DNA of 64,000 nucleotides from Limnanthes douglasii subsp. nivea (lineage: Eukaryota > Streptophyta > Magnoliopsida > Brassicales > Limnanthaceae), in the NCBI GenBank assembly GCA_036936605.1, contig JAUPFV010000002.1, positions 272,160,980-272,224,979 of the forward strand, given 5' to 3'. The position numbers and the translations under genes are program-made. Numbering within the stretch: the stretch's first letter is position 1; the number at the start of each line of letters is the position of its first letter. Positions 10,640 through 57,249 of the stretch are shown piece after piece. The notes under the pieces are model-generated. The model was not told where the DNA came from. It made no database searches and worked only from the letters and a program-made list of their open reading frames with translations.

Positions 10640-10648
10640 AATTTTATT
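10640..10648. repeat. Target duplication of MULE1, left
   Basis: AATTTTATT, identical to 31919-31927 at the other end. Nine bases is the usual Mutator length. Confidence 0.9.
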
Positions 10649-10797
10649 GGAAAATTGCATTTAAAGTACCCACTCAACTATTCAATTGTGACTTACTACC
10701 CAAGGTTTGATCAATTCTTACTTAATACCCAACTCAACTACCTTATTGTCACTTACAACCTAATATTATTTTAATACCCTAACTACCCTTAATCCAC

Positions 10798-10806
10798 TAT
10801 ATAAGC
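10798..10806 (+). promoter_or_regulatory. TATA box of the MULE1 transposase gene
   Basis: TATATAAGC lies 150 bp inside the left end. A leader intron may follow (donor TTTTCAG|GTAATT near 11068; acceptor near 12030, just before the ATG at 12038). Confidence 0.45.
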
Positions 10807-11460
10807 ATAATTTTCTGTTTTCTTTCTATTTTTTCTAGCTTTTTTAAGATTTGAATTTGTTAGCCGCTCTAACCACCTAACCCTACGAACCACCACGAAG
10901 ACTGGTTGAAATCACATTTTCCGGTGATCGGAAGGTGCTGAAGGTTTGTTTACTTATGTAGGTTGTGGTGTTAGACCTGTCTAACCACTGTTTTCTAACG
11001 TACATGAGTTGATCGTGGTTTTTTGGAATCTGTTGGCTTACAAGTAATCGTGTTGCTTGCTTTTCAGGTAATTACCTACCGATTTCGAAGTTATTTATTG
11101 GTTTTCTCTGTTGGAATAGGTTCTATTCTACTATTTTTAGACGTCATTGCCTGATTTCGAGCTTTTCTCTGTTTTTTTGTTATAGTGATCTGTTAATGTT
11201 TTGTTAATATTGTTCGTTATATACTTATGTCCTTGTTTCTGATGTTACATACTAATTTTGTAGTGCTTTAGGTTTTTATTTCATGTGTAGATTACGAGTT
11301 TTAGTTGTCCAGGCCTTTTTGCATTAAGATGCGAATTGTTTGATGTATTCGATGAGAAAAATACTAATTGTATGATCAATTTGCATGGTGACATGCGAAT
11401 CACATGAAAGAAGTTCAAAGTTTGCTTAGAAATATGATGCGAATTGTGCGAAGTACATAC

Positions 11461-11880
11461 GTTTCGCATGTTAGGATGCGAACTATGTGAAACTCTAGAG
11501 TACTGTATGTTCAAACAAATACCAGCAATTTTTAGTTAATTTTCTACACAGTTCGCATGTTATGATGCGAACTGTGTAGGATTCCAAAGTATTGCATTTT
11601 CAAACAAATATCAGTACTTTTTTAGTTGCTTTTATGTTTCGCATGTTAGGATGCGAACTATGTGAAACTCTAGAGTACTGTATGTTCAAACAAATACCAG
11701 GACTTTTTAGTTAATTTTCTACACAGTTCGCATGTTATGATGCGAACTGTGTAGGACTCCAAAGTATTGCATTTTCAAACAAATATCAGTACTTTTTTAG
11801 TTGCTTTTACGTTTCGCATGTTATGATGCGAACTATCTAGAACTTTTTAGAGTATTGTATTTCGAAACAAATATCAGGAC
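11461..11880. repeat. 175-bp tandem repeat carrying palindromes
   Basis: Units start at 11461, 11636 and 11811 (partial), exactly 175 bp apart. Each full unit holds two copies of the 20-bp palindrome, GTTTCGCATGTTAGGATGCG-type and CAGTTCGCATGTTATGATGC-type, separated by CAAACAAATACCAG or CAAACAAATATCAG words. It lies in the leader of the transposase gene. Confidence 0.92.
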
Positions 11881-13166
11881 CTTTTTTACAAACAAGTATT
11901 AGGACAGGATGCAAATTGCTTGATGTAGGTATACAAAAATCGCAAGATAGGATGCGAATTATTTGATGCAGTAGTAAATAATTTGCACATAGTTTTTGTG
12001 ACTAATAACTAATAACTTGTTCTGTCCAAGGTAAGAGATGTCTAAATCACGAGTTTGTATTTTGAAATATGGTCACCAAACTGCAATTGTGCCTTTCACG
12101 GAGTTTGAAAGCTTTCAAAGTATCCAAGCTTATGTAGAGAACACATGGGAGGAGCTTACCACAGGTGAGTACCTAATTACCTACTCCTACGGGGATCACA
12201 ATAATTGTTTCTTTAATAACCCGAATGATTTTGTTGGGTTTGTGTTATATCTTGATTTGGAGCGTTTAAAACGGGTTAGTTTTCTCATAGAACAACACGT
12301 CTTCGATAAGGGTTCTGGTGATAAAAGTTCTGTTGATAAGAGCTCTGGTGGTAAGGATTGTGGTGTAAAGCGTAAAGAGCGTAGCTTGATTTTGGGAGAA
12401 CCATCTCACAATCAACTAATTAGCGGGGAGAGTAGTAACGGTTTAGTTAATTCTGATCAGAGAAAAAAACAAGTTGCTACTGCTGGTTGGGTTGATGCTA
12501 TTACAGGAGTGGGTCAACCTTTTGAAGAAGGTGCTGCCGGTCTGAGGTTATCTTTGTGCAAGTTTGCATTAGAGCATGGCTTTTCTTTCAAATACCTGCA
12601 CAACACAGCAAATAAGATCACTGCTTATTGTGAAAATAAGTTCACAAGCGGGTGCAAATGGAGGGTTTATGCATCTATTGACTCAAGCACCGGCTTGATG
12701 ACGATCAAGAAGTATGTCCCGCACCATACTTGCAGTCCTGTTTTATCCCAGAAGCATAAGAATAAGCGGCATAGACATTTGACATTAGATTTGATTGCAG
12801 AGGAAATTCAAGATTCTCTACAGACCTGCCATTTGTTGACAGCCAAAACCATACAATCGACTGTCAAACAAGATTACGGTCTTGACATCTCTTATCGTTT
12901 GTCATGGAATGCTTTAGAGAAGGCTAGGAGGGGAGTTTTCGGAGATAGTTCAAGTTCTTTTAGTTTACTAAGCGGATACTTCAAACGCTTGAAGAGCCGG
13001 GATATTACTTCAGACTGCCAGTTGGAGTTGTCAATTGGAAACCGATTCAAGCGCTGTTTTGTAGCATTCGGTTTGTCCCTTTGGGGTTTTCGTTCATGCC
13101 GTCCAATGATTTTTGTCGATGGAACCCACTTATATGGCAAGTACAAGGGTACCTTGCTCACTGCTG

Positions 13167-13171
13167 TAGCA
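13167..13171. repeat. Target duplication of gypsy B, left
   Basis: TAGCA, matched by TAGCA at 23366-23370. Removing the element and one copy restores the transposase frame up to the intron donor. Confidence 0.95.
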
Positions 13172-13576
13172 TGGTGTGGTTATTTATCGTCTGGGGGTAA
13201 GTTGGTAATTTGTTTAGAGTTTTTGGAGGTTTGTGGGTGTTTAATGTTTAAGTAGAGAGTAGAGGGAGAATTAAGCAGCCTAGTTGTATTTAATTTCCAT
13301 TACCCACATTTAATGCAGGTGGTTGGGTATTTATACCCTTACATTTGGGCTTTATGGGTTTTTGGGTCATGTTTAATGGACCCGGGTCATGTTTAAAGAC
13401 CCATGAGCTCTTAGTAGGGGAGCAAGTAGCTTAGTCAAGAAGTGTTTAGGTTTTTTAGTACTTTTATCATAGTTCGAACAGTTCAATGGGCTGAGTGTTC
13501 GAAGTGTCCTGTCCGGTCCGGTGAGTTTGGTCTGATTTGTCCTTGTCCGGAGAGGAGGCAGAATTCAGACTCATCA
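13172..13576 (-). repeat. LTR of gypsy B (3' LTR in its sense)
   Basis: 405 bp; as read on the + strand it starts TGGTGTGG and ends ACTCATCA. It contains the reversed TATA word GGTATTTATACC at 13327-13338. Confidence 0.95.
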
Positions 13577-13592
13577 GGAGCCCCTTTTTTAG
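13577..13592 (-). other. Polypurine tract of gypsy B
   Basis: On the - strand CTAAAAAAGGGGCTCC directly precedes the LTR. Element A has CTAAAAAAGGGGCTAC and element C has GACTGGGGGGCTAC at the same place. Confidence 0.8.
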
Positions 13593-13910
13593 GTGTTTGT
13601 TCAAATACCTTTGTCAAAAACCTGAAAGACAGTCTGATGTCAGGGGTGGTTTTAATCCGGACAGGTCTGTTTGTCTTATGGTTTTATCCGGACTGATAAA
13701 GCTTCATGAATCCAAACGGTTTTGTGCCAGAGTTCATGTGACAAGTGTTGCTTTCTGGTTGGTTGCTTCAGCCGTCTTTTCACCTTGAATTTCGAACCCA
13801 CCTTCTTCGAAAAACAACCTCTTAATTAAAGGTGGTGACATCATTGTCGTCTTTAATCATTACCAATCTTTTCGAATTCTCCTAGGAATCAAACTCCTTT
13901 TTCAGATTTA

Positions 13911-13919
13911 CTATAAATT
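13911..13919 (+). promoter_or_regulatory. TATA box of the antisense gene of gypsy B
   Basis: CTATAAATT lies about 100 bp before ATG 14015. The stretch from TATA to ATG aligns with element A (CTTCTTAAAGCTTTTT against TAATCTTCAAAGCTTTTA). Confidence 0.5.
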
Positions 13920-14014
13920 AAAACACTTTCTACTGTTTCACCATCACTCTCATATTTACTCTGCAACTTCTTAAAGCTTTTTCTCTCCAAAGAAAAAATT
14001 TACCCATATAGTTT

Positions 14015-16768
14015 ATGTTTACAGTGAGGAACGCTCTGATCAAAGGTGGGTGGCTCAACCTCTCTGAACTAGAAAAGGCGTAAAAGGTTGAAAGGGAAAG
14101 ACGTATTGCAGCAGGATTACCCGTTTCGCCGATCGACAAGCCAGTGACTTCAGCCACAGAATCAGATCAAGGTTCTTCTTCCTCAAAAGGCATCAAGCCG
14201 AAAAAGTTGTTTCAAACTAATCTCTCCCCCATTATTTCTGGTTCTTCGGTTCAGGAATCGAAACCTGTTGTTGAGCCAGGGGTAATTGTTACCAGCTTTA
14301 AAAATCCCTCCCCTTTTTTAACAATGGGGTCAGACACTGAAACCTCCCCTCAAAAGTTAGTTGACCGGAGAAAAGGCCGGCTGGTCAAGGGTCAGGCCTC
14401 TAAGAGCACTCCTTTAAAATCGGGTGCCAAGGACAGCAGCGCTGGGTCAGAAGTGCCCATCAGAGCTCCCAAGGACAGACTGTCTGGTCCGGAGGATAGT
14501 AGCCCAGGTCTTCAAAGAGAAACCTCTGCATCAGAGCCCCAATCGGAGGCTAGAAACCAAGGGAACACTGAAGCCCAGCAGTCCGGAGACCTGGCTGAGC
14601 CAGATCTGAACCCTCCCCTTGCTACTGCTACTGAAAACCCTTCATCTATTATGGAGGAAGTAATGGAGGACTCTGTCGAAGAGGCTCCATTTGAGTCTGA
14701 GCCCTCCGGTCAGACTAGTAGTGCTGTTGTCTCCAAAAAAGACAAAGGCAAAGAGAAGTTGTGCTTGAGGCATCCGGATCTGCCGGAGAGTCTCGAAGCT
14801 ATTCACGGAGCTATTCAATTGGGGGCTCATATTCTCCTTAGACCCAGAAATTGTCATATACATCCATCTGATAAAGCTCTGTCCGAGCCAGCTGAGCCCC
14901 AATGCCTGGTACACCCTCATGGCCAGCATTATGGCTTCAAGGCTCTCCGTGATTCCTCTACCAATGGAAGAATTTGCTGCTGTGGTCAGTCTTTGCAGAA
15001 ATCACCACATCCCCTTCTACCATTTCAACATGGGGGATAACTTCAAAGTTGTGGATGACTTGGTAGAGTCGGAGAGGAATTGGAAGACCCAGTTCCTGTT
15101 TGTAAGTGGCGCTTGGGAGAATGGGAAGAATATCAAGTCTGAGTCAACCCAAGCCTTCTCACAAGAAGAAGGAGGAGCGACCGTAAGTCTTCTACTTTAC
15201 ATTCTTGTCTCTCCTTTTTTTTAAAGTTAGTTTAAACTAATTGGTCTTACTTTTGCCTTAGCAGAACTGCCCAAGGACTTCATTGATCATTTGAAAACCG
15301 GGCAGACCACTTGCACCAAGATCAACGCTTGGGCCGCTGAGAAGTGGGGGAACCGGTTCCATGCTGCCTTCACAGGGGGCAACCTAGCAAGGTCTCACCT
15401 TTGGAACACCACAGGTCGGAGAGACCTAACTTGGGAAGAGCTCACCACCCAGCCTCCTCCGGACGTAGTACTCAAAAGAACGCATGACCCAGATGGGACA
15501 CTCTACTTGCCAGCCCGGGCCAAGGCCCTGAGCAAGATGAAAGGTAAAAAGAAAGGCAAGAAGGCGGTGGGTGGAGCTAACCTTGCTGAGGTGGAGGAGG
15601 ATGCTTCAATACATCCGGAGGGGCCAGTCCCTAGTCAAATTGATGCTGCTCTCTTGGAAGTGGTGGAGCAGGAGACTGAAAGGCAAAAAGTGCACTCCGC
15701 AAACCCTCCTAGGGCTTCCAAAAGAGATCGTAAACGGGGAGGTAAAAGCAAGGACAGGGAGGCTAAGAAGAAAAAGACCTCTAAGGGTGACGAGTTTTCT
15801 CTCCGGACTTCGGAGCCTCCTCTCCAAGTTGACCCCTCTGACCCAACACAAGCAGAAGAGATACCTGGTGACTTCCAAACCGATGAGGTCGAAGGGGGAG
15901 ATCTTAGCATTGACGGTGTGGACATCACTGGTCTTGGTGGGCTTGGTGAGTACTTCATGAATCTCCCAGAGATGATTTTACCGGGCCTTATCTTCCTCCG
16001 AGCACCTCAAACTCAGTCACTTTCAATGGTAAGACCTTTACTGTTTCAAGTGAAAAGGATGTTATAACTCACTCTTTGTTAAGCAATGTTCAACCGGTGC
16101 TTGCGTTGGAGAAGAAAGTTCGAAATCAGGCAGACATTATCAAAGACCTCAAGTCTAGCAAAAAGAGGCTGTCCGACGATCTTCTTACTGCCACTCTAAA
16201 GGAAGAAAACGAGGAGTTGAAGAGAAACCAAGAGGTGAGCACCACAAAAGTCACCACACTAGAGAACACTATCACAGAGCTCCGGGAGAAGCTGTCCGGA
16301 CTGGAGAAAGATCTTGCCACCTCAAAAGGGGAGACCAAGGCCAAGGACCAAATTATCACCAACTTAACTAGTGACAAAATTGCACTTGAGAATGCAGTAT
16401 CCAAAGCTGCCAAGGAGAAAGCTTGTTTGCTAAGGGAGCAGGAGGCCAAAATCCAAGCCAAGATCGATGCTTATGCCAACAACGTGATCGACACTCATGA
16501 GCAAATGTATGCCAAGGTAAAATCAGACATGGTCCTGCTCTTCCATGAGAAGTTCCCGAAGAGGAACCTGGGTGATTTGTGGCTTCACGTAGAGCCTGAA
16601 GATCTCCCATATCACACATTGGCCGAAGGTGACAGGTTTGGCTTCTCTAGTGCCTCCTCATCCGATGACGAAGAACACACTGGGGAGAGCCCAAACGAAG
16701 AGAAAGATGATCCCAAGGGGAAGAAGAAGACATATGAAGCTAAACCATCTTCAAAGGCTCAGCCTTAA
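14015..16768 (+). pseudogene. Antisense extra ORF of gypsy B (two exons, broken)
   Basis: Start ATG 14015 (MFTVRNALIKGGWLNLSELE) is shared with element A. Exon 1 runs to 15182, the intron is 15183-15264 (donor GTAAGT, acceptor TTAGCAG), and exon 2 continues to the stop at 16768. N-terminal third: Ser/Pro-rich. Middle: FNWGLIFSLDPEI then NAWYTLMASIMASRLS, resembling Transposase_28. Exon 2: NAWAAEKWGNRFH, a Lys/Arg-rich basic stretch near 15720-15780 (KKKKTSKGDE) that could be a nuclear signal, and a long coiled coil at about 16080-16500 (LKEENEELKRNQE, TITELREKLSGLEKDLA). Lesions: TAA at 14081-14083 (Gln in A), a deletion of about 180 bp near 14800 that shifts frame, a missing G at the splice junction, and a stop near 16065. 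The role is unknown. Confidence 0.75.
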
Positions 16769-17261
16769 TTTACGAATTACTTTTTTCTTTTCATGTGATC
16801 TAAACTAAAGTCCTTGGAAGGCCAATGCACTCTTTTTTGTTAATGTGTCCGGTATTTGACCGGATAGATCCTTCACTCTGTTTTGACGATTTGAAAGTCC
16901 TTGGAAGGCCAAGGCACTTAAGCTGTTTTAATGAATATCCTTGTTTTGCACAATTCTCACATTTTTTCATAGTCTGTTCCAATTTTGATGGCTAGAGTTT
17001 AAATAGCCCTTAGTTATTTCATAGTGAGAGTGTTTAAATTCTCCGATGACGAATGTTTAAGTGGTCATCACTCTTTTATTTCAATCCGGATGGTGTGACA
17101 AAAGACAAAACTAAAACACTTCAGAAATTTTTTAAGAAGGCATCAAATTTTATTTAAAAAGCCGGACACCTCATTAAAACCTCCCCGTGCCACTTTGGAG
17201 GAAAGAGTATGCCCCCAAATATTTACATGGATGTTTAAACAAGTAAATATTTACACAAATG

Positions 17262-20200
17262 CTACTCCAAGTACATCCGGAGATGTTCGATATTCCAAGG
17301 GTGGGTCAAAATGCTTCCATCCTTGTCCTCTAGCCAATACGTTCCAGGTTTAAGCCTTTCAACAACCCTGTAAGGTCCTTCCCAAGTTGGGGCCAATTTG
17401 CCGAGCAACTTCTCTTTAGCTTGTAAGAAGACTTTCCTCAATACTTTGTCCCCCGGCTGGAAATCTCTTCTTTTAACTCTAGAGGAAAATTTCCTTCTCA
17501 TCAAACCTTGATAGTGCGCAACTCTAAGGTGAGCTTTAACTCATCTCTCTTCTACCAGATCGAGCTCACTTATGATTGCTACTTCGTTTGCGCATTCGGA
17601 GAAGTTGTGAATACGAAATGATGGGAGGGTTGCTTCTATGGGAGCTACTGCATCCATCCCATAGACCAAAGCAAACGGTGAATCCTGTGTTGCAGCCCAA
17701 GTGTTGTCCGGTAGGCCCACAAGACCTCTTGTAAATAACTAGGCCACTTCCCAGCAGCCCCTTCCAAATTCTTCTTTAAACCAGACAGAATTGTTTTGTT
17801 AGCCACTTCAACCTGACCATTTGCTTGTGGGTGGAAAGGTGAGGAGAAACAAGTTGTATACCCCTTGAGGCACAGAAACTCTCCATTTCCCTATTATCGA
17901 ACCGTGGCCCATTGTCTGTTGTTATCTTTTGTGGAACACCAAATCTGCAACAGATGTTGGATAGAATTAATTTTATGGCAGCTTTTGATGTTGTTCCTGC
18001 CAAAGGGGCTGCTTCAATCCACTTTAAAAAGTAATCTATAGCAACAATTATAGTCCTGCGCCCTCCGGATGCCATAGGGAGAGGCCCTACTAAATCCAAC
18101 CCCCATCGAGCAAAAGGTATAGGCTTAGAAATTGACTCTAAAGGAATGGCTGGGACATGAATTTCATTGATGTATCTTTGGCATGGGTCAGACCTTCTTA
18201 CCAGCTACTTAGCATCTTTCATGATATATGGCCAATAGTAGCCGGCCAGTAAAACTCTTCTTGTCAAAGCCCTGAATCCACAATGAGCTGATCCCTCACC
18301 ATCATGTAATTCGGAGAGGACTACCTGAGACTCATCATCCCCCAAACAGCGCAGAAGAGGTTTACTGTAAGACTTTTTATACAGAATGTCTCTCAGTATG
18401 ATAAAACCACGGGCCTTGTGTTTTAGCTTTCTTGCCAGTGACTTATCCAAAGGCACGATGCCTTCGGTGAGGTATTGCAATAGAGGAAATCTCCAATCCT
18501 AAGGTTGTTTCATCTGTACTTCAAAAATTTCTTCTTCTTTACTCATATTAAGTTGAATGGAGGGGCTCTCTAACACATGGATCCATGGATACGACTCCGT
18601 GTATGCTATGGTTGCCAACGAATCTGCCAACTCATTTTTTGTCCGGGGTATATGTTCATAAACAACGCTTTTAAACTTGAGTGCTTCATTTTTAAGAAGA
18701 AGTAAATATTTCACTAGCTGCTCCTTTTTAGCTTCAGATTGACCTTGGGCATGGTGAATAAGAAGCTGAGAGTCACTCAGTAGCTTGACCCTCTTAGCCC
18801 CACAAATATAGGCTAACTTTAAACCAGCTATAGCTGCTTCGTACTCAGACTCATTATTGGAAGCCCTGAAAGCGAAACATGTAGCTTGGTACATTTTGTC
18901 ACCATACGGAGAAGTCAAACACACCCCTGCACCACAGCCCATAGTGCTGGATCCACCATCTGTCCGGATGACCCAGACCTTTTTGTCTTCCATGTTAGTA
19001 GCCTGCTCTGAATCTCTGTCGGAGTGAAATTCAACCAAGAAATCAGCCACAGTTTGGGCCTTGACTGCCGTTCGAGGAGCAAAATCTATGTCGAAATCCC
19101 ACAATTCTACTGACCACTTTGTCATCCTACTTGAAACGTCTGTCTTTTGAAGGACATTCTTCAAGGGAAAAGATGTCCGGACGATGATAGGATGAGCCTG
19201 GAAATAAGGCCTCATTTTTCTTCCAGCTATTACCAGGGCTAATGCTAACTTCTCATGTTTCAGATAACGGCTTTCTGCATCTATCAAACTCTTGCTGATA
19301 TAGTATACTGGATGGGGGTAATTATCCACTTCTCTCACCAACACAGCACTGATGGCACAACTTGAAACTGCCAAATATACGAAGAATGTCTCCCCATCAA
19401 TTGGTTTAAGCAAGGTTTTAGGGGAGGACAGATGTTTCTTGATCTCATCGAAGGCCTTATCACACTGTGAGGTCCAATTAAATCCCTTTGCACCCTTCAA
19501 GGTTTGAAAAAATGGGGCGCACCAGTACGAAGACCTTGAGATGAATCTGTTTAGAGCAGCTAACCTCCCCGTTAGCCGTTGTACTTCTTTAATATTTCAA
19601 GGAGGCTCCATGTGGAATAGAGCATTAAGTTGGTCCGGATCGAGCTGTATCCCATGCTCACTTATAATATAGCCTAGAAACTTCCCGGATTGAACTCCGA
19701 ACACACATTTTTCTGGATTTAACTGTAAATTCACTTTCACTAAGTTGGTAAAAGTTTCTTGGAGGTCAGCCAAGAGCAATTGCTCATCCACAGTCTTTAC
19801 CATCATGTCATCGATGTATACTTCTATATTCCTTCAATATGATCAGCAAAAGCTTTATTTACCGATCTGTGATAAGTAGCCCCAGCATTTTTCAACCCAA
19901 ATGGCATTACCTTGTAGCAATGAAGACCCCTGTCAGTGACAAATGTGGTATGCTCTTGATCCTTCAGATCTACTTGGATTTGATTGTATCCGGAGAAAGC
20001 ATCCATAAAGGATAGTAGCTTGTTCCCAGAGGTGGAGTCTACTAGTTGGTCAATCCGGGGAACTGGGTACAAATCTTTTGGGCAAGCTCTATTGAGATCT
20101 GTGAAGTCAATGCACATGCGCCACTTGCCATTTTTCTTTTTCACCAGGACCGGATTGGCAGTCCACAAAGGATATTGAGACTCCTTGATATGCCCCATCT

Positions 20201-22934
20201 TTGTGAGCCTGTCAACCTCTTGTACAATGACATCAGCCTTTTCCTTGGAAAAAACCCTTCTCTTTTGAACTACTGGTTCTATGTCTTTCCGGACGGATAG
20301 GTGATATGATATCACATCTGCTGGAACCCCAGTAACATCAGCATTGCACCAAGCAAAAACGTGCTGATGGCTCTTCAAAAACTTTAGCATCTCACTTTTC
20401 AAACCTGGTGGCATCTTAGACCCTATCTTGACACTTTTTCCTTCTTCTAAAAAATGTGTCTCTACCTCTTCGACTGGGATTAACACTCCAGGGGTCTCTC
20501 TGGGGTCATCAATTTCACCCTCACCCCCAGAAATCCCCTCAAATTGCTATTGCTCGTTGATGCGAACTGCCCCCAGCGTCCGGGGATCCAGAGCTGTAGC
20601 ATAACATTTCCTTGCAACCTTTTGATTGCTCCGGACAACTCCCACCTGTCCCTGAACAGCATATTTCAAACATTTGTGGACTGTTGAAGCCACTGCATGC
20701 ATCATAGAGAGCCAAGACCTCCCTAAAATAGCATTATAGCAAATGGGACAATCCACCACAATAAAAAGTATCCTGACCATCTTCTTGAAAGGGCCCTTTC
20801 CCAACAAAACTTCTTCTTCGAACTCCCCGATCACATCTGCTGAGCTGCCAGTAAAGCCCACAATTGATCTGTCCGAACTCTGAATTACAGCTGGATTTTT
20901 CATTCTCTTGTATGTGGTTAAGAAAAGGATATTGGCTGAGCTTCCAGTATCTACCAAAATTCGTCTTATGTCATTGCCCCCAATGGATGATCCTATAACA
21001 ACAACATCTTCATGAGGGCCAGCTATATCTCTCAAATCATCTTCATCAAAAACAATGAAGGGAAATGGAATTTGCGACTGATAGGAAGTCATGCCTCCCT
21101 CTAGCTGGGTGGCCAAAGTATGAACGTGCCTCTTCCTCGAAGAAGTAGTAGGAGCTGTCATAGTATCCCCTCCAAAAATTGTAAGGGACTCAAAAAACTT
21201 AATGAGGCCGGAGACTGTCCTAGAACTCTCCTCAATTGCACCCACTCTATTTCGAGTTGGATCAGGATCCAAGTATTCAGATTCCACATCAAACCTCTCG
21301 ATTATAACCATGGCTCCCTCCGGAGCAGCATTACTTGGGCCAACCCGGTGAGTATTGTCAGGCCTGTTACCTCCTCTTCTTTTGACATAAGCCCCCAGCT
21401 TTCCCCTTTCGATCAAGTTCTGAACCTCTTTTTTCAAAGCTATACAATCATCGGTGGTATGGCCAATATCATTGTGATATTGGCAAAAAGAGTTATTGCG
21501 ATGCTCTCTAGGAGACTGCAGTGTGGCTGGTCTTCTATAGTGCACCTCTTCTTTTGTTTTATCATAAATGGTGGCCACACTTTCTTTCAATTCTGCGAAC
21601 CACTCCGGTTGGACCCATGGCCCTCTCTTGTTTCTGGATTGCTGACTCTGAGCAGGAGCAGGTGGCTGAGACTGAGCTTTGGCCCTACCATGCCCCTGTC
21701 CGGTCTCCTTTGCCTTGTTCCCGGACGGATTCTGGTTGGGATTCGGTGCCACCGGGGTAGACCTCACCTGCCTGTGCACCCTGGTTTTCTTCGTTTAATC
21801 AACGTTAATCTGTTTTCCAATCTGATTCAGCAACCCTCCCCAGGTCATGGCCTTCTTTCTGGTCAGTGAATCAGCCAAATTGCCAGGGTTCAAGCCCTGT
21901 CTTAAGGATGCTATTGCCACTTGCTCGAAGCAATCAGCCAACCCATTCTTGGTGCTCACAAAACGACTTATATATTCTTTTAAGGATTCATTTGGTTCTT
22001 GGGCACAATGGATTATTGTGTCTCCATTGCCCTTTAGCTCTTTACTCCCTACAAACTGGCTTCGAAAGGCCACCCAAAAAGTATCGAAATTCTTGATACA
22101 ACCCTGTGGTATGCTGTTATACCATTTTAGAGCACTCCCCGTAAATGATTGGGAGAATGCTCTGCAAAGTAGCTTATCATTGTCGTCAAAGTTCATCATG
22201 AAGTTTTTAAATTGTTCCAAATGGTTGTCCGGATCAGTACTGCCATCGTACTTTTCCATTTTGGTGCTGTCAAACCTCTTAGGGAGGTTTCCGGACAGAA
22301 TTTTGGAAGATAATGGAGATTGCCGCCAATTTCTGCCACGACTGAACACGGTATCCTCATTGGGAGTTGCAAAGATACCTGGTTCATCGTGAAAAGCGAA
22401 AGGATCCATTAGCATCCGGTCCACATGCCTCCGACTATGAGATGACCCTTTACCAATATTCTTCTTCATCTTTCCATGTCTATCTCTTTTTCTTGAATAT
22501 TTTTTAATCTGATTTTGCTTCTTTTTAGTTCGACCCCCATCGCTGCTAGATGATAAGGATTCTTCAACTCCCTCATCGTCGGAAGAGCTATCAGAAGATT
22601 CTGAGCCTGAGTAAGAACTCTCCACTGGCTTAGACCGATGAAACTTTTTGGAACTGGCATGAGTCTTTTTGGTACTTACATGAGTCTTTGAAAGCTCATG
22701 CTCTCTGGGGTTATCGGTGTGATGAGCAACTGACGCTTTTGACTTTTCTTTCATGCCCATCTTAGCCTTTTCTGCCCCCAGAGCTTCTATCTCACCCTTT
22801 AATCTATCACGCTCTTCGATAGTGTACTCATCGTTTTCTCCCACCACTTCGAGCAAAGCTGGTTGTACTTCCGGGGCGTCCGGATACATTCGGACTGATT
22901 TGTTTTGCTGGGTTTGAATGCTTGATTCAGGCAC
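17262..22934 (-). pseudogene. gag-pol of gypsy B
   Basis: Gag (22934-21795): acidic/Ser-rich N-terminus, then the capsid block KYDGSTDPDNHLEQFKNFMM and FTGSALKWYNSIPQG. A TAA at 21797-21795 interrupts where relatives have Glu. Next in frame come PWVQPEWFAELKESV, a Cys/His motif (CQYHNDIGHTTDDC), protease with catalytic DTGSSANILF (about 20960-20930), then a conserved UAG at 20549-20547. RT: PLWTANPVLVKKKNGKWRMC, DLNRACPKD, FSGYNQIQVD and, after a one-base shift near 19830, VYIDDMMVK. RNase H covers 19500-18499 (IRTDGGSSTMGCGAG, NESEYEAAIAGLKLA). Integrase: IIVAIDYFLKWIEAA, ITTDNGPRF, then a frameshift at the HPQANGQVE block near 17835. The C-terminal domain is at 17504-17262 (WEGPYRVVERLKPGTYWLED). 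Five or more lesions. Confidence 0.9.
20544..20549 (-). promoter_or_regulatory. Conserved UAG at the protease/RT junction (B)
   Basis: In-frame CAA-TAG-CAA-TTT between the protease module and the IDDPRETP block that leads into RT. Elements C and D hold UAG at the same point, so it is probably a readthrough site rather than a lesion. Confidence 0.6.
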
Positions 22935-22941
22935 CTTCTTC

Positions 22942-22960
22942 TTCCACTGTGGTTGCCAAT
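22942..22960 (-). other. Primer binding site region of gypsy B
   Basis: On the - strand, two bases after the LTR end, TTGGCAACCACAGTGGAAG. It aligns with TTGGCGCCGTCTGTGGGAA in element C and TTGGCGACCATAGTGGAAG in element D. The primer tRNA is not assigned. Confidence 0.65.
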
Positions 22961-22961
22961 T

Positions 22962-23365
22962 TGGTGTGATTATTTATCGTCTAGGGTAAATTGGTAATTT
23001 GTTTAGAGTTTTTGGAGGTTTGTGGGTGTTTAATGTTTAAGTAGAGAGTAGAGGGAGAATTAAGCAGCCTGGTTGTATTTAATTTTCATTACCCATATTT
23101 AATGTAGGTGGTTGGGTATTTATACCCTTACATTTGGGCTTTATGGGTTTTTGGGTCATGTTTAATGGACCCGGGTCATGTTTAAAGACCCATGAGCTCT
23201 TAGTAGGGGAGTAAGTAGCTTAGTCAAGAAGTGTTTAGGTTTTTTAGTACTTTTGTCATAGTTCGAACAGTTCAATGGGTTGAGTGTTCGAAGTGTCCTG
23301 TCCGGTCCGGTGAGTTTGGTCTGATTTGTCCTTGTCCGGAGAGGAGGCAGAATTCAGACTCATCA
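22962..23365 (-). repeat. LTR of gypsy B (5' LTR in its sense)
   Basis: 404 bp, TGGTGTGA to ACTCATCA on the + strand. The TATA word (reversed TATTTATA at 23117-23124) would drive gag-pol on the - strand. Differences from the partner LTR are all A/G or C/T exchanges plus one missing G. Confidence 0.95.
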
Positions 23366-23386
23366 TAGCAAAGGACGGAAACAACG

Positions 23387-23823
23387 GTTAGTTACATTTA
23401 TCTAGTTAATCTAAATGATGTTTTTGTGTGAAAATGCTGATGCAATTCGCATACGAGGCTGCGAATTAAGCAGTGTTCGAATCTTCACATTTCGAATTTG
23501 AAGATGCGAATTATGCGATAACAGTTCGCATCCTATACATGCAAACCTCTTATTGTTGTGATCTTAACATTTTGCATTTGAGGCTGCGAATTAGGTATTA
23601 TCTGAAACTGTACTTACATTGCAGCTTGAATTAGGTATTATTTGAAGTTGTCACAAATAATTCGCATGACAAGCTGCGAATTCCATGTATTATCAATTAA
23701 AATGTCACACATAATTCGCATGACAAGCTGCGAATTGTTGTACCAGGACATCATGCGAATTGTTTACAATTTTTAAACGTTTGGGGTACTGTTGTAGTGT
23801 TCATTTGATCTGCCTTTTTGAAG
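23387..23823 (+). other. Intron of the MULE1 transposase with palindromes
   Basis: GTTAGT...TTGAAG, 437 bp. Joining at these borders gives NNGLFPV, the expected transposase text. The intron holds about ten TGCGAA/TTCGCA half-sites. MULE2 has the same intron (about 45858-45363) with its own set. Confidence 0.7.
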
Positions 23824-25642
23824 GACTATTCCCTGTTGCTGTTGGTGTAGTTAACATTGAAGATTGTGACAATTGGATGTGTTTTTTGGGGTGTTTGAAC
23901 CCACATTTGCTGGATCGCCAGATCACATTTATTTCAGACCGCCATTCTAGTATCGTTAATGCTGTTTCTGTCTTGTATCCAAACTGCTATCATGCGTACT
24001 GTTATTTCCATCTCATGCAGAATTTGAAAGCCAAACTGGAACATACTAACAGAGACTATAAAAAAAGGATGTTGAATTTCTTTCATCGTCTTGCTTATGC
24101 TCCCATTCGAGAGCTTTTTAAAGATATACTAACGGTTTTTCTATGTGAAGGTGGTGACAGAATGAGTGATATTCTTGCAAATTTACCCCCTGAAAAGTAT
24201 GCGCATGCTTACGTAAAAGGGAAGCGATACGGCTCTATGGCTTCTACTGCAGCTGAATCGTTTAACAATCAGATTAAAAAATATTGCGGCCTACCAATTG
24301 TTGAGTTTATTTATTGGATTAGAGTCTTGCTTATGACTCAAGTTTCACGGCGATACGAAGAAGGTCTCAGCTGGAGTACTAATTTGGTTCCCGAGTACGA
24401 GTAGAAGCTAAAGCAGAATGTTGACATGTGCCGAACTTGGGTAGTACGTAAGTCCTCTACCGCCATGTTCGAAGTCTTTTCGAATCCTGTGGTTGTTGTT
24501 AATCTGTTGGATTTCAAATGTTCTTGCAGATCATGGCAACAAGAGTGTTTTCCATGTCCTCATGCTTTAGCTGCATTACAATACATCGACCAAGATCCAT
24601 TGACTGTAATAGAACCCTTCTTTAAGGTTAAGAATTACAGGGAAAGTTACTCTTTCAGCATACCAGCTCTAACTGATTTCGGCGAAGGGTCCAGCGCTAA
24701 CGATCCTTCTTTTGTTGAAGTTCTGCCTCCGAATGTTAAGAGACGCTCTGGAAGGCCTAAGAAAAAGCGAATCCCATCTAGAGGAGAAAACTCAACCAAG
24801 CAGTTGAGGTGTGGCCGATGTTCGAAATCAGGCCATAACCGGAGGACTTGTGATGTTCTATTTTAAGGACAATCCGCGTTGTGGACAATTTTGGTTGGCC
24901 GATCACATTTATTTGTAGTACTGTTATTGTTCTGTACAACAAACTAAACATTTTTACATTCGTGTGTTTTGTAATGCTATTATTAGAGTTACGAAATGTT
25001 AAGTGATTTGAGTTGTAAGCATTTTGCATCCGGTGTTGCGAATTGTGTACAATATGTTGGTATATTGTTGCAAACATCTATCAGGTTTCCATGCGATTTG
25101 TGTGAAATTTCACCAGGATGCGAATCGTTAGTAAAATCATATCAAACATTTCAAATAAATATTAGGACTCCTGCTTGCGAATTATGACCAGAACATATGA
25201 AAATAATTATTCGCATACGTTTCGCTTGATAAGATGCGAATTATGACCAGAACATATATCAGGACTCCTGACTGCTTGTGTAAATATATATGATGCAAAT
25301 GGAGAACAACCAGAAGTCCTGATATTTGTCACATGATAAGCTGCGAAGTGTGCTTTAATAAAAATACTAGGATATTCAGTGGGTTGCAAATCGCATGTTA
25401 GGCTGCGAATTGCATGAAATTCAGTAAGGTTGGAAACAAGTAATATATCAGGTTAACATGCGAATCATTTGCAAATTGTAATTGGATGCGAATCGCTTAT
25501 ATGATTGAAAGTCTGTAAACAAATTGGAGTACAAAAAAGAGGATTACAATATTTCATGCACTAACAAATGTTTACACATATCACTACAAACTACTGCTGT
25601 TAGTTAGTTGCATTCCAAAAAATTAAAAAACAAAAGCCAACT

Positions 25643-26117
25643 TTAGCAGTTAGTAGAGGATTCTTCACCATTTTTTTGTTCTTTCTCCTCTTTGTGCTGA
25701 TCATCGGCCTTTTTCTCTTCCACTTCCTCTTCATCTTCATTATCTACGTCCATCATGCTTAAATTTTTTATCCTTGATGGACCAGCTTCGTCTGGCCTCT
25801 TCCTTTTGTTGTTTCGAACCGCTGTCGTCTGAGGTTGCACCTTTTTCTGGCTGAGGTGTAGCAGCAAGCATTGGAACCTCTTCGGGCTGAGGTTCAACAG
25901 CAACCAGTGGAACAACTTCCACTGGTTGAGAGTCAGCAGAGTAGTAGTCATCATATATGTCTAATTCAAAGACATATACTGGGCTGGGGGGTGGTACTGC
26001 TGGCATGATCAACTCATCGCTCCAGTTAACGGTTAAGGATGACCATGAGTCACCCAGAGAACCAAGTGAACCAGAGTTTGAGTATGAGGTGGTGGTTGTG
26101 GTGGTGGAAAAAGACAT
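25643..26117 (-). pseudogene. Small acidic ORF of MULE1
   Basis: ATG 26117 opens MSFSTTTTTTSYSNSG, then a Pro/Glu/Val-rich middle (VEVVPLVAVEPQPEEVP). After a probable frameshift near 25830-25860 comes a basic patch (RNNKRKRPDEAGPSR, NLS-like) and a very acidic C-terminus (DNEDEEEVEEKKADD) ending at 25643. No known domain. It lies between transposase and ULP gene with a TATA box about 85 bp upstream, so it may be a third element gene, or the 3' portion of a former ULP-gene region. MULE2 has lost this segment by deletion. The function is unknown. Confidence 0.45.
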
Positions 26118-26200
26118 GACTGTTTGAATTCGAAGATAACAAGAGGTCTTTTTAAAAAGATATAGAGATTGTTGTAAAATTAGCCTCTGGTTACTAGAGG

Positions 26201-26209
26201 TATTTATAG
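26201..26209 (-). promoter_or_regulatory. TATA box of the small acidic ORF
   Basis: CCTATAAATACC on the - strand, with the first ATG about 85 bases downstream, a normal plant spacing. Confidence 0.5.
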
Positions 26210-26763
26210 GTAAATGAGGTAATCATTACATAGCCTCCATGTCCAATCAGCAATTAATGGGTTATGTACTTGATTAGATTGTTTTTTGTGTGCTCAATGG
26301 AGAAAACGTTTACGAAGGCATAAGCCACAGCCTGTTCGTATCCTTGAACTTTATATTTTGAATTTTTTATTCTGCACCAGGCTGCGAACTGTGTTTAATG
26401 TGGTATACCAGGGCTTGCTGCGAACTGTTTGTATAGTGATAAGTACGCATCTATCAGGTTAGGCTGCGAACTATTTACTGATAAGTTAGGCTGCGAATTA
26501 TTTACTTATAAATAAGCATCTATCAGGTCAGGCTGCGAACTGTTTGATGAGTATGCTGTTTTAAGACATACCAGGGATTTGCTGCGAATTATTTGGTTGG
26601 AATTATTCGAATATTAACCAACCCTTATATATCAGGTTATGATGCGAACTATTTGCTAAAGAATATGCACATTTCTGAAAATGTAATTTGTTTATGTATG
26701 CACAACAAACTAAAAATTACAACCGATGTATTTACAAGGAAAAGCATAGTGTTTTAAATCGAA

Positions 26764-29700
26764 TCAGCCATATGCGATGCGTTCTTTGTAATTTAAAAAG
26801 TAATAAAACATTTCTGCTCTGAAAGCAGTGACCATATCTGCATCGTATTCTGTCTGCACAAATCCATGCTGGATAATATCTCTTGCATATTTGCAGACAA
26901 AAATACCACAGTCCAGGGTGCCTTGTTTTTGTTGTGGGATTTTTCTTTCAACTTTCACCTTCCACCATGTCTTTGATTTAGGTAGGAATCCTTTCTCTAA
27001 CAAATATTTGATCTGTTTATAATAATTAGTGTTAGGAATCAACACAAAAAACACCAACATTTGGTGCCATACAATTCGCACCTTAGGCTGCGGATTGTGT
27101 GACAACAAATCCAACATGGGCATGTCACACGATTCCCAGTCTAAGGTGCGAATTGTTTGATATCCAATCCATTTTTTTTATTGAAATGCACCGTTCAAAA
27201 CGATTCGCATCATATGCTGCGAAATTTGTTATGGATAGGCTGCGGAAAGCAATTGATTTACTCACATTTCGCAGCATATCTCGATCACAGTTCGCAGCAT
27301 GCATACTTAAAATGTGTTTAAATTTAAGTGTATAGTTGGGAATATTTATCAGTTGTGTAGGTGTCCTTGTGGTGTAGTCTATGGCTTTCAGCTTAGGCAG
27401 AAGTGGATTGTAGTTTGAAATTGACCTGCCGTCGACGTCAATGACGAACAATGTCCAGTGGTTTATCTGGTCCTTTGTCTCGGTGCATACTGGAACCATG
27501 ATGATATTGGCGTCTTTGGGCCCCTTTCTAAAAGTTGCGTCCACCAAATTTTCTACTTGCCAGCCTGCTTTCATTTGATGCTGCATCCAAGCAAGAGTAT
27601 ATTACAATGAGAACATTTTCTGAAACTTTGAAATTTACGTGAGCTAAACTTACCGCAGTCATGCCCGAAATCAGTACGGTGTCATGATGCTCTCCTTTAG
27701 CTTTAGTGCATGGAACTTTGAAGTCTGCTTCTTCAAGCATCTTTCAAATCCAAGCGTCGATAACCTATGAAAGGAGTTGTACCTTTATATTAAATATACA
27801 AGACATATTTGAAACATTAAAAATAGAATTGGTTGACAATTGGATACCTTTACGTCTAGCTCCAGTTCTAAAGGTAGTGCCATCGCATCACTCGCTTACA
27901 CTCTGATTCCGTATGTAAATTTGGACTCTGGTAACTGCCATACCACTGGATCAGGGGTGTCGCTCTCGTAGGCTTTAACTAACTGTATTTTGTGGTATGC
28001 TGCCACATCGATACGGTCAGGTACTTTTGTTTTCTTTGGCCGGTCGCTTTATTCTACTTTTGGTGGTTCCCGTACTGTTATAATGTACTCTTCCTCTTCC
28101 TCTGCCACTTGAGGCTGTGTTGGTGTCAGTAGAGTAAAACTTGGCTCCTCTATCTCTTTACTGGGCTCGAGCTTAGTAAATAACAAAAATCAAAAGTAGA
28201 AGGGTGTCAGTCAACATAATTGCAACGACCCCAAACAGTTCGCATGTTAACATGCGAACTGTTTGGTTCCAGATGAATAAATTTCAGAGTATCTATCAGG
28301 GTAGGATGCGAACTGTTCGAGGTCCCACTGAACAGTTCGCATGATACCCTGATATTCGTTTGTAATACCCCAAACAGTTTGCTAACACAAATCTCATGTT
28401 ATTATGCGAAATCATTATAAGTAGACCTTACCGCACGGTCAGCGACAACCAATGTCGTTGACTTGTTCGACATAGGATCTGGATCGTGTCGGCAGAGATC
28501 ATTAAAGTCATCCTCCGACATGTTCTCCAAAGATCGTTGTATTATAGAATCGTAATATACATTATCAAGTACATCTTCTAGGCTGCCTGGTTTTGCCACT
28601 TCTTTCGCACGATCTTCTATCTCCTTCGGGTCATTCGGAGGAGACTCGTGTCTTTCTTTCTCTGTCTGTGTCTCCATGATGGTCATCTCTGTGGACATCG
28701 TCAACTGTTCGTTCATGCTTGCAGATTGTACCGGTATGGGTGAATGGTTGGCATCATCGTCCCTCTCTTCTGGCAGTACTCCATCAGCATGGTGTTGATC
28801 AGCATTAGACACGGATACTTGCAATACAGTGGATGCTGCTCTGTCTGGAAATACTGGTGCCTGCTCAGCTATTGGGCTTTCAATCTGGAAAATTGGCTGA
28901 GAGATAGCATTGTGTAGTTGTTGTGCTTCAAGTTCCGCTATCTTCCGTTTCAATTCTTTCAGCTGGAAAAATGATAGCAAACATTTTATAAACATATTAA
29001 GTGCTGATTGTAGCAATTATTTAAGGCTCAAGTCATACTTACTTCTCTGGCCTGTTTTTCTATCTTTCTCTCGTACTTGTTCTTGTCGGCGTATGTCTTC
29101 AAACGCTTTGATTCAGCAACAATTGCAGAAATCTCGGGATTAGGACCTCTGCGTTTGAGTACATAATCACCGATTGTTTCACTCATACTGGTTGTGTCGT
29201 CGTCGTCGGGCTCCTGCCTGGATTTGCCTTTTTGGTGGTTGTGGAATCGTTTGCTTGGGGAGTTTTGGTGGTGGAATCGTTGGCTCGGGTGGTGTTGGTT
29301 GTTCGGGTCTGGGAGACATCACCTTATTCATTCTTTCTGTGATGCTCGTCTCCTTTGTCTTGGTTTTGATGCTGTGCTTTTCGTCCTCTTCATTGGTCTT
29401 TCTTTCGGTGAAGTAGAAACAGTTTCTGCATCTCCACTATTTTCTCGTTCTCTAAAAGCTTCACTTTCAGCCTCAGTAAGACGTAATGGACCTTCGAAAA
29501 CCTACCAACAGAGGCACATGTAAGTAAATAAATTGTTTTGAAAGTATGATGGTGTAAACAAACAAATTGTTTTTTACAAACGGTTCGCATTATATGATGC
29601 GAACTGTGTGGATTCTATCCATGTTAGAGTTGCAAAGAATTCGCATGCTGAGCTGCGAGTTGTGTGTGAGCCATATGCTGCGAACTATGTGTAAACCATA

Positions 29701-30984
29701 TGCTGCGAACTAAGTATTTATGTCAGGCTGCGAAATGATTGATGCATTGTTCTATTATAACACTTGTTAAAACGCATGCTGAGGTGCGAAATGTGTGTAA
29801 ACAATATGATGCGAGCTGTGTGGAAAAAGGAAGCTGCGAAATAAAATTCATATCAGGCTGCGAACTGATTGATGCATGTTTCTAATATAACACTAATCAA
29901 AACGCATGATATGCTGCGAACTGTTTGCACCCCCAGTTCAATACCTATAAGAAGCTTATACCTGGTCATTATCCAGCAAGGGTGTTCTAAGAAGCACCGT
30001 CATGGTTGCTGCTTGGCACTCTAATCCCAACCATTTGAAAACCCTTGGTATCGAGGTTGGCTTCGCTACCTCGAGTCCGACTGTTGTGTGCTCCATGATG
30101 AAGGGCTGCATGGGGACAAGTTTTATCAACATGATGCTCTGTACATAACTAATTTTTATACTGAATAGATCAATCTTACAATTACAAGGGCGACGCAGCC
30201 GACGACTCTATCAGGTTTTTTGATTGCTAAGCAACTCCTCATAGACTATCGAAGCTTGTATAGTATTGATCCAGACCAGTCGTAATTATTTATTCTGCTG
30301 AGGTCTTCAACATAATAAACCGTGCTCCAACCCAGGATATCTCCAGATACGGAGTAGAATAGGGTGGAGCAAAAAACAGTATCAACAACCTCGCAACATC
30401 TTCCAACTCATGCTCCCCTCCTTCATTTATGACCTTCTCTATACCCTCTTGTAAAAGCAACGACAACATGCTATGTTAGAAAAATACAGAATCTAGCTTT
30501 ATAAAGATGAAGTCGATTTTAGACGTACCTTTATAATGGCATTTGTTATTGTTTTAGTATTACTAGCTGCTACTTTCCTGCCAGTTTTACCCATGAAGTA
30601 TTTCTTCATCATCCTTGATTCGTCCTCCTCGTCGGGTGCATATTTGTTGTGAAATGCTCCGGTTTTTGCTAACCGTATTTTCTCGCTGCCATGCCTCAAC
30701 CCGAATATGACCTTCACATCGTTTTCAGTTATCTTTACAAACTTGTTTCCAATCTTAAAGGTGTCTCTATCAACAGAGTATTGCTCGATGACATACTGAA
30801 TGATTGAGTAGAATTTTTTCTTTGGCAGCTCTGCCTCATTACGGATTTCGAAAGCCGTTTTCAAAAGTGTGTAGAAGGGTGTGTTTCTTGCAGCTTCAAT
30901 GTGGGCCCTTGTAATACGCATATCTTTAAGTAGCTTCAGAAGGCTCACCACCCCTGATCTGTAATAGCTAGGTTTTGTTGTCAT
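26764..30984 (-). pseudogene. ULP-like (C48 peptidase) gene of MULE1
   Basis: A multi-exon gene. Exon borders from sequence: leader intron 31522-30990; exon 30984-30529 (MTTKPSYYRSG; VKITENDVKVIFGLRHG, a plant-mobile/DUF1985-like N-domain); exon about 30452-30180; exon 30105-29962; exon about 29511-29042; exon 28967-28437 (coiled coil LKELKRKIAELEAQQ); further exons 28170-27660; then the protease. The protease has NHWTLFVIDVDGRSISNYNP (catalytic His; the usual Asp is Asn) and QKQGTLDCGIFVCKY (Gln and Cys) in 27586-26764. ULPs process or remove SUMO. Lesions: one base missing near 30400 against MULE2, an in-frame stop near 28045, and another near 27757. Introns carry palindromes. Confidence 0.8.
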
Positions 30985-30989
30985 ACTTC

Positions 30990-31522
30990 CTGCACAAACA
31001 CAAATCAGTTGGAGCGTCACAAACTTCGCATCACAAGCTGCGAATTTCATGTATTATCAGTTAACATATCACACAATTCGCATGACAAGCTGTGAATTGC
31101 CTATATATGAATACTGTTTTTACAGACAATTCGCAGCCTGGGCTGCGAATTATTTGTATATAAACGGCATAAAGATTGAATCAAGCTACGAATTGCTTGC
31201 ATAATGGGTGATCAGGATGCGAACTGTTCTACTTTTTATATGCACGTTGCAGGGATCTGAGAATTATTGAACAGACACCAAAATCAACAATCAACTACCT
31301 AATGCACATCTAACATACATAATAGTTCTTAGGAAAGTATTAGCATTACATGCAACTAAACTTCTACCCTGCATTCGACGGTAAACCCAGAAACTGAGCA
31401 ACTAGCGTCAGTAGATACTTCATTCCAGTATAAAAAGCAACGCCTATCGTGAAATAACAGAAAATAGTGGTTCGAATTCGTCAAAAACGCAAAAAAAGTA
31501 CACTTTCCACGATAATGCATAC
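30990..31522 (-). other. Leader intron of the ULP-like gene
   Basis: Donor AAACAG|GTATGC and acceptor TGTGCAG|GAAGT, followed by the ATG six bases on. Contains TTCGCATCACAAGCTGCGAA (31024) and TTCGCAGCCTGGGCTGCGAA. MULE2 has the same intron arrangement ending before ATG 37557. Confidence 0.6.
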
Positions 31523-31795
31523 CTGTTTACTTCTAAACACTGTAAAATTCATCGGTCGGAGACGACTTCATGACAACTTTGTCGAACAGAAGGTGTGGAG
31601 TTGGACTGAGTAAAAGACGGTGACCGGTGCGATTGCGTTGAAGGTGCGAACGGTGATAAGCTGTAGGGGTTTTGGGTTTGAGAGAGAGAGAGTATCACGG
31701 AGTCGAACGGTTTTCTGGTGGTTTCTAAAATTAGACGTTTGGGTTTGTTTAGGGTGATAGGAAGGTGGAAAAAGTGGGTTCGAACTGAAAAATGG

Positions 31796-31806
31796 GTATA
31801 TATAGT
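31796..31806 (-). promoter_or_regulatory. TATA box of the ULP-like gene
   Basis: CTATATATACCC on the - strand, about 115 bp inside the right end of MULE1. MULE2 keeps GATTATATATACCC at the matching place (about 36637-36650). Confidence 0.55.
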
Positions 31807-31918
31807 CGAGAGGTATTTTTGTCCAATTTATTATTCGAGGTATTAAGTAACACTATCCAAAATTTGGGTAATACCGGGTAATAAGATAATTGAGTGGGTA
31901 TTTTCCGGTACTTTTCTC

Positions 31919-31927
31919 AATTTTATT
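31919..31927. repeat. Target duplication of MULE1, right
   Basis: AATTTTATT, identical to the left copy. Confidence 0.9.
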
Positions 31928-36425: not shown

Positions 36426-36526
36426 CTGTTGGAACTAAATTAAATTAAACCGGATATATTAATTAATTAAGTTAATTAAGTTAATTAATATATTAATAAA
36501 AAAAATTAGATAATATGTTCTGTTAT
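36426..36526 (+). repeat. Copia-type LTR, left piece (split by MULE2)
   Basis: TGTTGGAACTAAATTAAATT opens a piece like the LTR at 7753. The rest of the LTR (AAAAATTTC... TATATTCTACA) appears after MULE2 at 49473-49512. MULE2 therefore inserted into an existing LTR, and part of it was lost. Confidence 0.55.
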
Positions 36527-39251: not shown

Positions 39252-39256
39252 GTTAG
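39252..39256. repeat. Target duplication of gypsy C, left
   Basis: GTTAG, repeated at 44483-44487. Confidence 0.92.
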
Positions 39257-39586: not shown

Positions 39587-39606
39587 TTGGCGCCGTCTGT
39601 GGGAAC
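39587..39606 (+). other. Primer binding site of gypsy C
   Basis: TTGGCGCCGTCTGTGGGAAC directly after the LTR, a common primer-site sequence of plant gypsy elements. Confidence 0.8.
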
Positions 39607-39661
39607 ACGTGATACCAAAAAGGAATCTTTTTCTTTGAAAATCGCGATATGATCTTAAAGA

Positions 39662-44135: not shown

Positions 44136-44152
44136 GAAGACTGGGGGGCTAC
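44136..44152 (+). other. Polypurine tract of gypsy C
   Basis: GAAGACTGGGGGGCTAC immediately before the 3' LTR. Confidence 0.8.
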
Positions 44153-57244: not shown

Positions 57245-57249
57245 TAGCC

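Follow-up and report, generated by a model that had tools for sequence, protein, structure and literature searches.

Arrays of a rigidly spaced palindrome occupy the non-coding DNA of a Mutator-like transposon family of Limnanthes douglasii and may be targets of an anti-silencing protein

Results

The window analysed here, a 64,000-bp stretch of the genome of Limnanthes douglasii subsp. nivea (GenBank assembly GCA_036936605.1, contig JAUPFV010000002.1, forward-strand positions 272,160,980 to 272,224,979), contains a Mutator-like element (MULE), denoted MULE1, at 10649..31918 on the plus strand, including a nested gypsy retrotransposon. Its non-coding DNA carries arrays of a 20-bp palindrome, TTCGCAK-N6-MTGCGAA, which an earlier inspection of the sequence (hereafter, the original prediction) had taken for the target of a dimeric protein encoded by the element. 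The arrays have a single geometry, are nearly confined to non-coding DNA and are specific to one MULE family; we infer protein binding, the likely source of the binder and an anti-silencing role.

Both ends of MULE1 match the homologous ends of other copies in the genome. Without the nested gypsy, the element measures 11,079 bp, and the other full copies, E1, E3 and E4, measure 11,434, 11,023 and 12,138 bp; all four are flanked by perfect 9-bp target site duplications, different at each. The ends of the family display a degenerate, terminal-repeat-like similarity over 71 alignment columns (about 70 bp). Family members are 11–12 kb long and comprise genes for a transposase, an acidic open reading frame (ORF) and a reversed Ulp1-type protein (ULP), the latter lying antisense to the transposase both in MULE1 and in those examined copies in which the two genes are present. 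The exons of MULE1 (Table 1) were modelled from open frames and splice signals, and some of their borders are approximate; the 3' exon of the transposase has one in-frame stop (24402-24404).

Table 1. Features of MULE1 and the second family copy in the window
Feature	Position	Strand	Remarks
Target site duplication, left	10640..10648		AATTTTATT
Array A, leader upstream of transposase	11330..11958		15 half-sites, 5 exact palindromes; tandem units of 86-89 bp and 175 bp
Transposase 5' exon (DBD_Tnp_Mut)	12035..13171	+	interrupted by gypsy insertion; Pfam 4.5e-8
Nested gypsy retrotransposon	13172..23362	-	approximate borders; outside the system; 2 half-sites
Array B, between transposase exons	23446..23759		10 half-sites, 3 exact palindromes
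Transposase 3' exon (MULE, SWIM)	23795..24866	+	approximate start; Pfam 2.8e-9 and 7.4e-7
Array C, intergenic	25023..25492		9 half-sites
Acidic ORF	25663..26117	-	no Pfam match; possible frameshift in the MULE1 copy, to judge by its frames
Array D, between acidic ORF and ULP gene	26383..26648		7 half-sites, with TATCAGG-N6-TGCGAA hybrids
ULP gene	26767..30984	-	in-frame stops, broken in MULE1; Peptidase_C48 1e-9 (spliced protein)
ULP exons A-D	A 30984-30529, B 30445-30293, C 30105-29962, D 29501-29331	-	borders partly approximate
ULP exons D2-I	D2 29186-29040, E 28962-28432, F 28174-27848, G 27764-27654, H 27580-27311, I 27012-26767	-	borders partly approximate
Array E, between ULP exons H and I	27075..27296		6 half-sites, 1 exact palindrome
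Array F, between ULP exons E and F	28239..28410		5 half-sites, 1 exact palindrome
Array G, between ULP exons C and D	29584..29920		10 half-sites, 1 exact palindrome
Array H, ULP gene 5' leader	31025..31223		6 half-sites, 2 exact palindromes
Target site duplication, right	31919..31927		AATTTTATT
MULE2, inverted second copy of the MULE1 family	36526..49468	-	internally deleted, second gypsy inside

Within the window, exact TTCGCA and TGCGAA hexamers face each other 18 times at 14 bp from start to start and at most twice at any other distance within +/-60 bp, which bears out the fixed 6-base spacer of the original prediction; the 13 bp that it gave between half-site centres is right for 7-mers, but the centres of the hexamers lie 14 bp apart. 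Palindrome matches with up to three mismatches are likewise in excess, with 82 in the window against 22.1 +/- 5.2 in shuffled sequences. The half-site TGCGAA occurs 70 times in MULE1, in line with the 65-70 given in the original prediction, 34 times in MULE2 and seven times in the remaining 45,174 bp (0.15/kb). Inside MULE1, 69 half-sites fall in 5,859 bp of non-coding DNA (11.8/kb) and a single one in 5,220 bp of coding sequence (0.19/kb), so that the exons are indeed nearly devoid of them. The sites surround all three genes and fill interior introns and spacers. The claim that all non-coding DNA was filled is too strong: eight of the 14 non-coding segments of MULE1 contain sites, and the six shortest (73-187 bp) and the first 681 bp of the element contain none. 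The original prediction also recorded the arrays of MULE1 and overlooked both MULE2 and a second, CpG-free type of arm, nTATCAGG.

MULE2 matches MULE1 with 67-90% identity, depending on the aligned segment, and has no counterpart of MULE1 positions 25449-30135. Its half-sites lie within 36805-38990 and 45487-48896, on either side of a gypsy element at approximately 39254-44449 whose long terminal repeat (LTR) stretches (39254-39553 and 44150-44449) are 95% alike; those of the gypsy nested in MULE1 (13195-13494 and 22984-23283) are 97% alike. Elsewhere in the window, we noted a Copia element (52468-57264) with LTR-like repeats at 52468-52636 and 57096-57264 that are 90% alike, and an inverted repeat resembling a miniature inverted-repeat transposable element (6854-7202), with 114-bp arms that are 84% complementary.

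The position of the sites relative to the element ends bears on the idea, also part of the original prediction, that the palindromes assemble a transposition complex, with the transposase binding them through its DBD_Tnp_Mut domain as TnpA binds the subterminal repeats of Spm. The transposase does have a DNA-binding domain, and TnpA and MURA lower the methylation of their own elements, according to passages of PMC10398659. However, no exact half-site is present in the left 681 bp or in the terminal-repeat-like ends, the half-sites closest to the right end are 268 and 695 bp away from it, and the sites fill introns and spacers in the interior of the element, around all three genes. This avoidance of the ends argues against terminal transposase sites, and we consider such a complex unlikely.

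The distribution in the whole genome (1.78 Gb, 633 contigs) is equally skewed. The exact pattern TTCGCA-N8-TGCGAA occurs 15,513 times, compared to 10 occurrences of the reversed control pattern, whereas the 22 spacings from N9 to N30 together yield 2,513 matches, or about 114 each (control, 332), part of which are neighbouring arms within arrays or other inverted repeats. Short inverted repeats of the TTCGCAATTT type recur at other spacings, for instance, at G000:C1:8441858-8441913, and make up part of the 2,513 non-N8 matches. We inspected the first 50 distinct places among the matches listed, all on contig C1. Seven clusters, all with copies of the MULE family (in cluster E6, the left end of the element alone was examined), account for 49 of these places; the remaining one lies beside an unrelated MULE-like coding stretch, in 2.5 kb that contain five half-sites and resemble none of the copies at the nucleotide level.

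Ten copies assembled from the window and these clusters hold 436 half-sites in 56,230 bp of non-coding DNA and 10 in 36,563 bp of coding DNA, with 71 convergent pairs at 14 bp and 8 at the next most common distance. A genome search with ULP exon A returned 8,615 loose candidates; the 150 of these that were scored, on five large contigs, matched at 87-100% identity over the full length of the exon or to within one residue of it. The 30 best of these matches to MULE1, MULE1 among them, form a non-random sample of loci around the 5' part of the ULP gene; half-sites are present at all 30, with 500 in 71,070 bp of non-coding DNA and none in 32,610 bp of coding DNA, and 87 exact palindromes were counted. 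The three outcomes named as refuting in the original prediction did not occur: in MULE1, the ten copies and the 30 loci, exons were far poorer in half-sites than non-coding DNA, the spacing was fixed in the window and across the genome, and the related copies contained the motif.

These counts also bear on the possibility that a host DNA-binding protein, be it an activator, an insulator or a silencer, recognizes the site and that the element exploits or suffers this binding. The sequence gives no sign that the binder is element-encoded, and MULE2 keeps its sites despite the loss of most of the ULP gene, both of which fit a host factor. A host site would, however, be expected elsewhere too, and 49 of the 50 first listed places belong to one family, making a host protein improbable in our judgement.

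Alignment of the 70 MULE1 half-sites yields the extended consensus cAnACArTTCGCAKSnTAnSMTGCGAAYTGTnTG, with information up to approximately 13 bp beyond the hexamers. The second arm, nTATCAGG, is in the same register and has the outer ACA, T and CA of the common arm, with the CpG replaced by ApT. Among 101 TATCAGG in nine copies, 32 are followed exactly 13 bp downstream, in the palindrome register, by TGCGAA (14 at the next offset), and none has a homotypic CCTGATA partner at the palindrome geometry. Such hybrids number 33 against 71 exact palindromes in the ten copies, and 3 against 87 in the 30 loci, where the 5' part of the ULP gene was sampled; MULE1 has no hybrids in that part. CAGG at position -5 (27 of 229) was considered as a second spacing register and is best read as a spacer variant. 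Distances between neighbouring palindromes in the ten copies have a weak 10-bp peak (vector length 0.21, n = 113; eight periods tried, uncorrected, non-independent sites), and we neither claim nor exclude helical phasing. Helical periodicity has reportedly been noted for VANC motifs.

Conservation was compared in orthologous non-coding stretches of the ten copies, for half-sites and control hexamers whose two aligned flanks were each at least 78% identical; the comparisons share copies and are non-independent. On average, half-sites diverge more slowly than control hexamers: exact half-sites are fully conserved in 762 of 1,100 comparisons, as against 841 of 1,953 for CpG-bearing control hexamers and 11,306 of 23,651 for other controls. 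Per-base identity is 0.87-0.96 in the half-site, 0.89-0.91 at the central TA and about 0.87 in the flanks, and falls to 0.74-0.78 at spacer positions -8, -6, -3 and -1 and at +6 and +8. Among hexamers that are not pure A+T, TTCGCA forms 71 inverted pairs at this geometry and the next hexamer three.

An extended dyad of this kind could fold into a stem of about 14 bp, and the palindromes might then act as RNA hairpins in introns and leaders. However, the sites also occur in intergenic DNA (array C). For 225 of 432 TGCGAA, the partner arm has two or more mismatches, yet the fully conserved fraction is similar for half-sites without an exact partner (0.669) and with one (0.644). Where both arms have one change, 13 cases are uncompensated and three compensated, which argues against hairpins. 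We therefore reject this idea as highly improbable.

The arrays could also be neutral minisatellites that arise by slippage and bind no protein. Array A is built of tandem units (Table 1), and two of its 175-bp units are 98% alike, pointing to recent tandem duplication; palindrome counts in the leader vary among copies. The closer set of 30 loci gives a weak conservation signal, and 10 of 44 copy pairs give none. Against this stand the single exact spacing in eight separate compartments of MULE1 and its predominance over other spacings throughout the genome, the lack of half-sites from 32.6 kb of exons in the 30 loci, and the slower average divergence of half-sites relative to controls. We find a purely neutral origin quite improbable, if not to the same degree as a hairpin.

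The Pfam domains of the transposase (Table 1) identify it as Mutator-type; a fragment of it had no match in plasmids. For the acidic ORF, no Pfam domain was found. The C-terminal domain of the ULP protein belongs to the Ulp1 (C48) peptidases, its matches among Protein Data Bank (PDB) sequences being the sentrin proteases SENP5 and SENP1 (best E about 0.001), whereas exon A matched no PDB sequence at E<=5. Of 7,993 candidates scored from a set of 5.8 billion proteins, none was a homologue of the ULP protein at E<=1e-3. In the Ulp1 domain (window positions 26767-27580 and the copies in L005-L016), Asn occupies the position of the catalytic Asp in seven of eight copies (HW ... NYN ... QQK ... DCG), and the Cys motif itself is altered in some copies.

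Median dN/dS, which the decay of broken copies dilutes throughout, is 0.37 for ULP exon A, 0.38 for the protease exons H-I, 0.47 for the N-terminal part of the transposase and 0.66 for the acidic ORF. Exon A is as constrained as the protease domain, which we count in favour of the explanation preferred in the Discussion. Matches of exon A to DUF3867 fell below the Pfam cut-off and were disregarded. Genome-wide, three DUF1985 matches at E<=1e-3 were obtained (150 of 1,225 candidates scored), all below the cut-off. The genes concerned, L048, L049 and L050, are plant-mobile-domain (PMD)-like, and the 3.2-3.4 kb examined around them contain no palindrome; the Pfam scan covered L048 and L050.

Discussion

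The explanation that we favour, with confidence slightly better than even, is that the palindromes are sites of an element-encoded dimeric protein with an anti-silencing role like that of VANC, and that the arrays are kept in a KI-type MULE. Each site would be a two-arm DNA-binding site of a protein that binds as a dimer, and tandem duplication together with constraint would maintain half-sites by the dozen in the larger stretches of non-coding DNA. The binder, most likely encoded by the element, with the N-terminal part of the Ulp1-type protein as the leading candidate, would coat the leaders, introns and spacers of the family and remove or block DNA methylation there, such that the genes of the family stay expressed. 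The ULP protein is the first candidate because, in passages of a review citing Sasaki et al. 2022, VANDALs carrying a KIU gene recognize specific non-coding motifs of related elements and hypomethylate them, and because the Ulp1 gene is reversed here as it is in KI-MULEs. The family specificity, the near-confinement to non-coding DNA, the palindromic form with one rigid spacing and the signs that the site is read as sequence and not as a hairpin are what one would expect if an element-linked dimeric protein bound the sites, in support of this part of the original prediction; they do not single out the binder.

Several observations weigh against this interpretation. The CpG bases of the half-site are conserved at the level of the flanks (0.87 and 0.89), the lowest values in the half-site. 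Conservation is also uneven: across the 44 ordered pairs of copies that offered 10 or more hexamers of each kind, it was higher for half-sites in 34, equal in two and lower in eight, with one-sided p<0.05 (uncorrected) in 11, and in the 30 best-match loci the difference was small (0.941 against 0.919, p=0.086). Constraint on the half-sites is likely, if not uniform. Stops or shifts are present in all eight copies whose reading frames were inspected, and there is little constraint in ULP exons B-C, F-G and D-E (median dN/dS 0.96, 0.88 and 0.72). No Pfam DUF1985 match was found in the exon A domain of five copies (E limit 1 for MULE2 and 10 for the others), and alignment of the exon A profile to PMD/DUF1985-like proteins of the same genome was non-significant (HH-suite Prob 0.9 and 0.8 of 100; E 0.062 and 0.069). 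The alignment with E 0.062 coincides with the F-x-x-G ... T-x-x-D-V ... G-L segment in plant-mobile-domain proteins, which are themselves weak DUF1985 matches; exon A may be remotely related to DUF1985. Moreover, the motifs of VANC21 and VANC6, YAGTATTAY and AGTTGTMC, are not enriched: five copies, 53,421 bp in all, contain four and three occurrences, as against two and one of the controls. Finally, in passages on the Arabidopsis system, VANC motifs are 8-9 bp long and those of VANC21 have one orientation, whereas the present site is a palindrome of 20 bp (approximately 34 bp in its extended form) with fixed spacing and two arm types.

A more elaborate scheme, which we regard as rather unlikely, would make the two arm types a methylation-gated switch. 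The CpG arm TTCGCA would be blocked by methylation, and hybrids with the CpG-free nTATCAGG would give the dimer a foothold on silenced copies from which to spread. In this scheme, the binder combines a DNA-binding domain with the Ulp1-type domain that mostly has Asn for the catalytic Asp, and SUMO carried by silencing factors could be bound or removed right at the arrays. A link of the Ulp1 domain to DNA-bound arrays would render a role of SUMO testable.

To our knowledge, Arabidopsis VANDALs are the main case in which the sequence-specific anti-silencing action of a dedicated transposon protein has been elucidated. If the favoured explanation is true, a high-copy family in another plant genome that uses a long, rigid palindrome instead of a short motif demonstrates that target codes change in kind and not in letters alone, and the palindrome offers proteins that demethylate or activate a highly specific DNA address (one of the 50 first listed places lies outside the family).

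Among known systems, the VANC/VANDAL pair is the closest comparison that we found. In the sections of PMC5735166 that describe it, VANC21 binds clustered, short, single-orientation motifs, often tandem repeats, in the introns, intergenic regions and non-coding termini of its own family, and causes methylation to be lost. VANDAL21/VANC21 and VANDAL6/VANC6, as presented in parts of PMC5735166 and PMC10398659, share with the MULE1 family the MULE background, family-specific motif clusters in introns, leaders and intergenic DNA that are rare in exons, and arrays organized as tandem repeats with turnover of units.

The architecture of the family is, in turn, that of KI-MULEs (Kaonashi, KIU; Ulp1-bearing MULEs without terminal inverted repeats), for which passages of PMC2528002 and PMC13317346 report a mudrA-type transposase, an Ulp1 gene reversed relative to it, three coding genes and the 9-bp target site duplication usual for plant MULEs; those passages describe no palindromic target. 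The MULE1 family may differ in its degenerate, terminal-repeat-like ends of about 70 bp and in the Asn at the catalytic Asp position of seven of eight copies. Given the lack of a Pfam DUF1985 match and the non-significant profile alignment, we file the family as a KI-type MULE and not as a VANDAL, with arrays that probably work like VANC targets.

The original prediction held that the system evolved independently. This is unsupported, because the KI-MULE architecture is published and the review describes motif-specific anti-silencing for Ulp1-carrying VANDALs, while calling the function of their Ulp1 domain unknown. According to passages of PMC2528002, ULP-bearing MULEs are polyphyletic. Common descent with that anti-silencing is at least as likely as independent origin, and with no Pfam DUF1985 in the N-terminal domain, neither origin can be demonstrated.

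The sites of TnpA in Spm, a CACTA element, are subterminal. The palindromes resemble them as repeated short sites, presumably for an element protein, and unlike them avoid the element ends and fill the interior. Among the papers listed by our literature searches, none described this palindrome; the motifs of Sasaki et al. 2022 were outside the comparison, and a similar palindrome among them is possible. As far as these searches go, the MULE1 family represents a known kind of system whose novel features are its long, rigid palindrome, its two types of arm and its scale.

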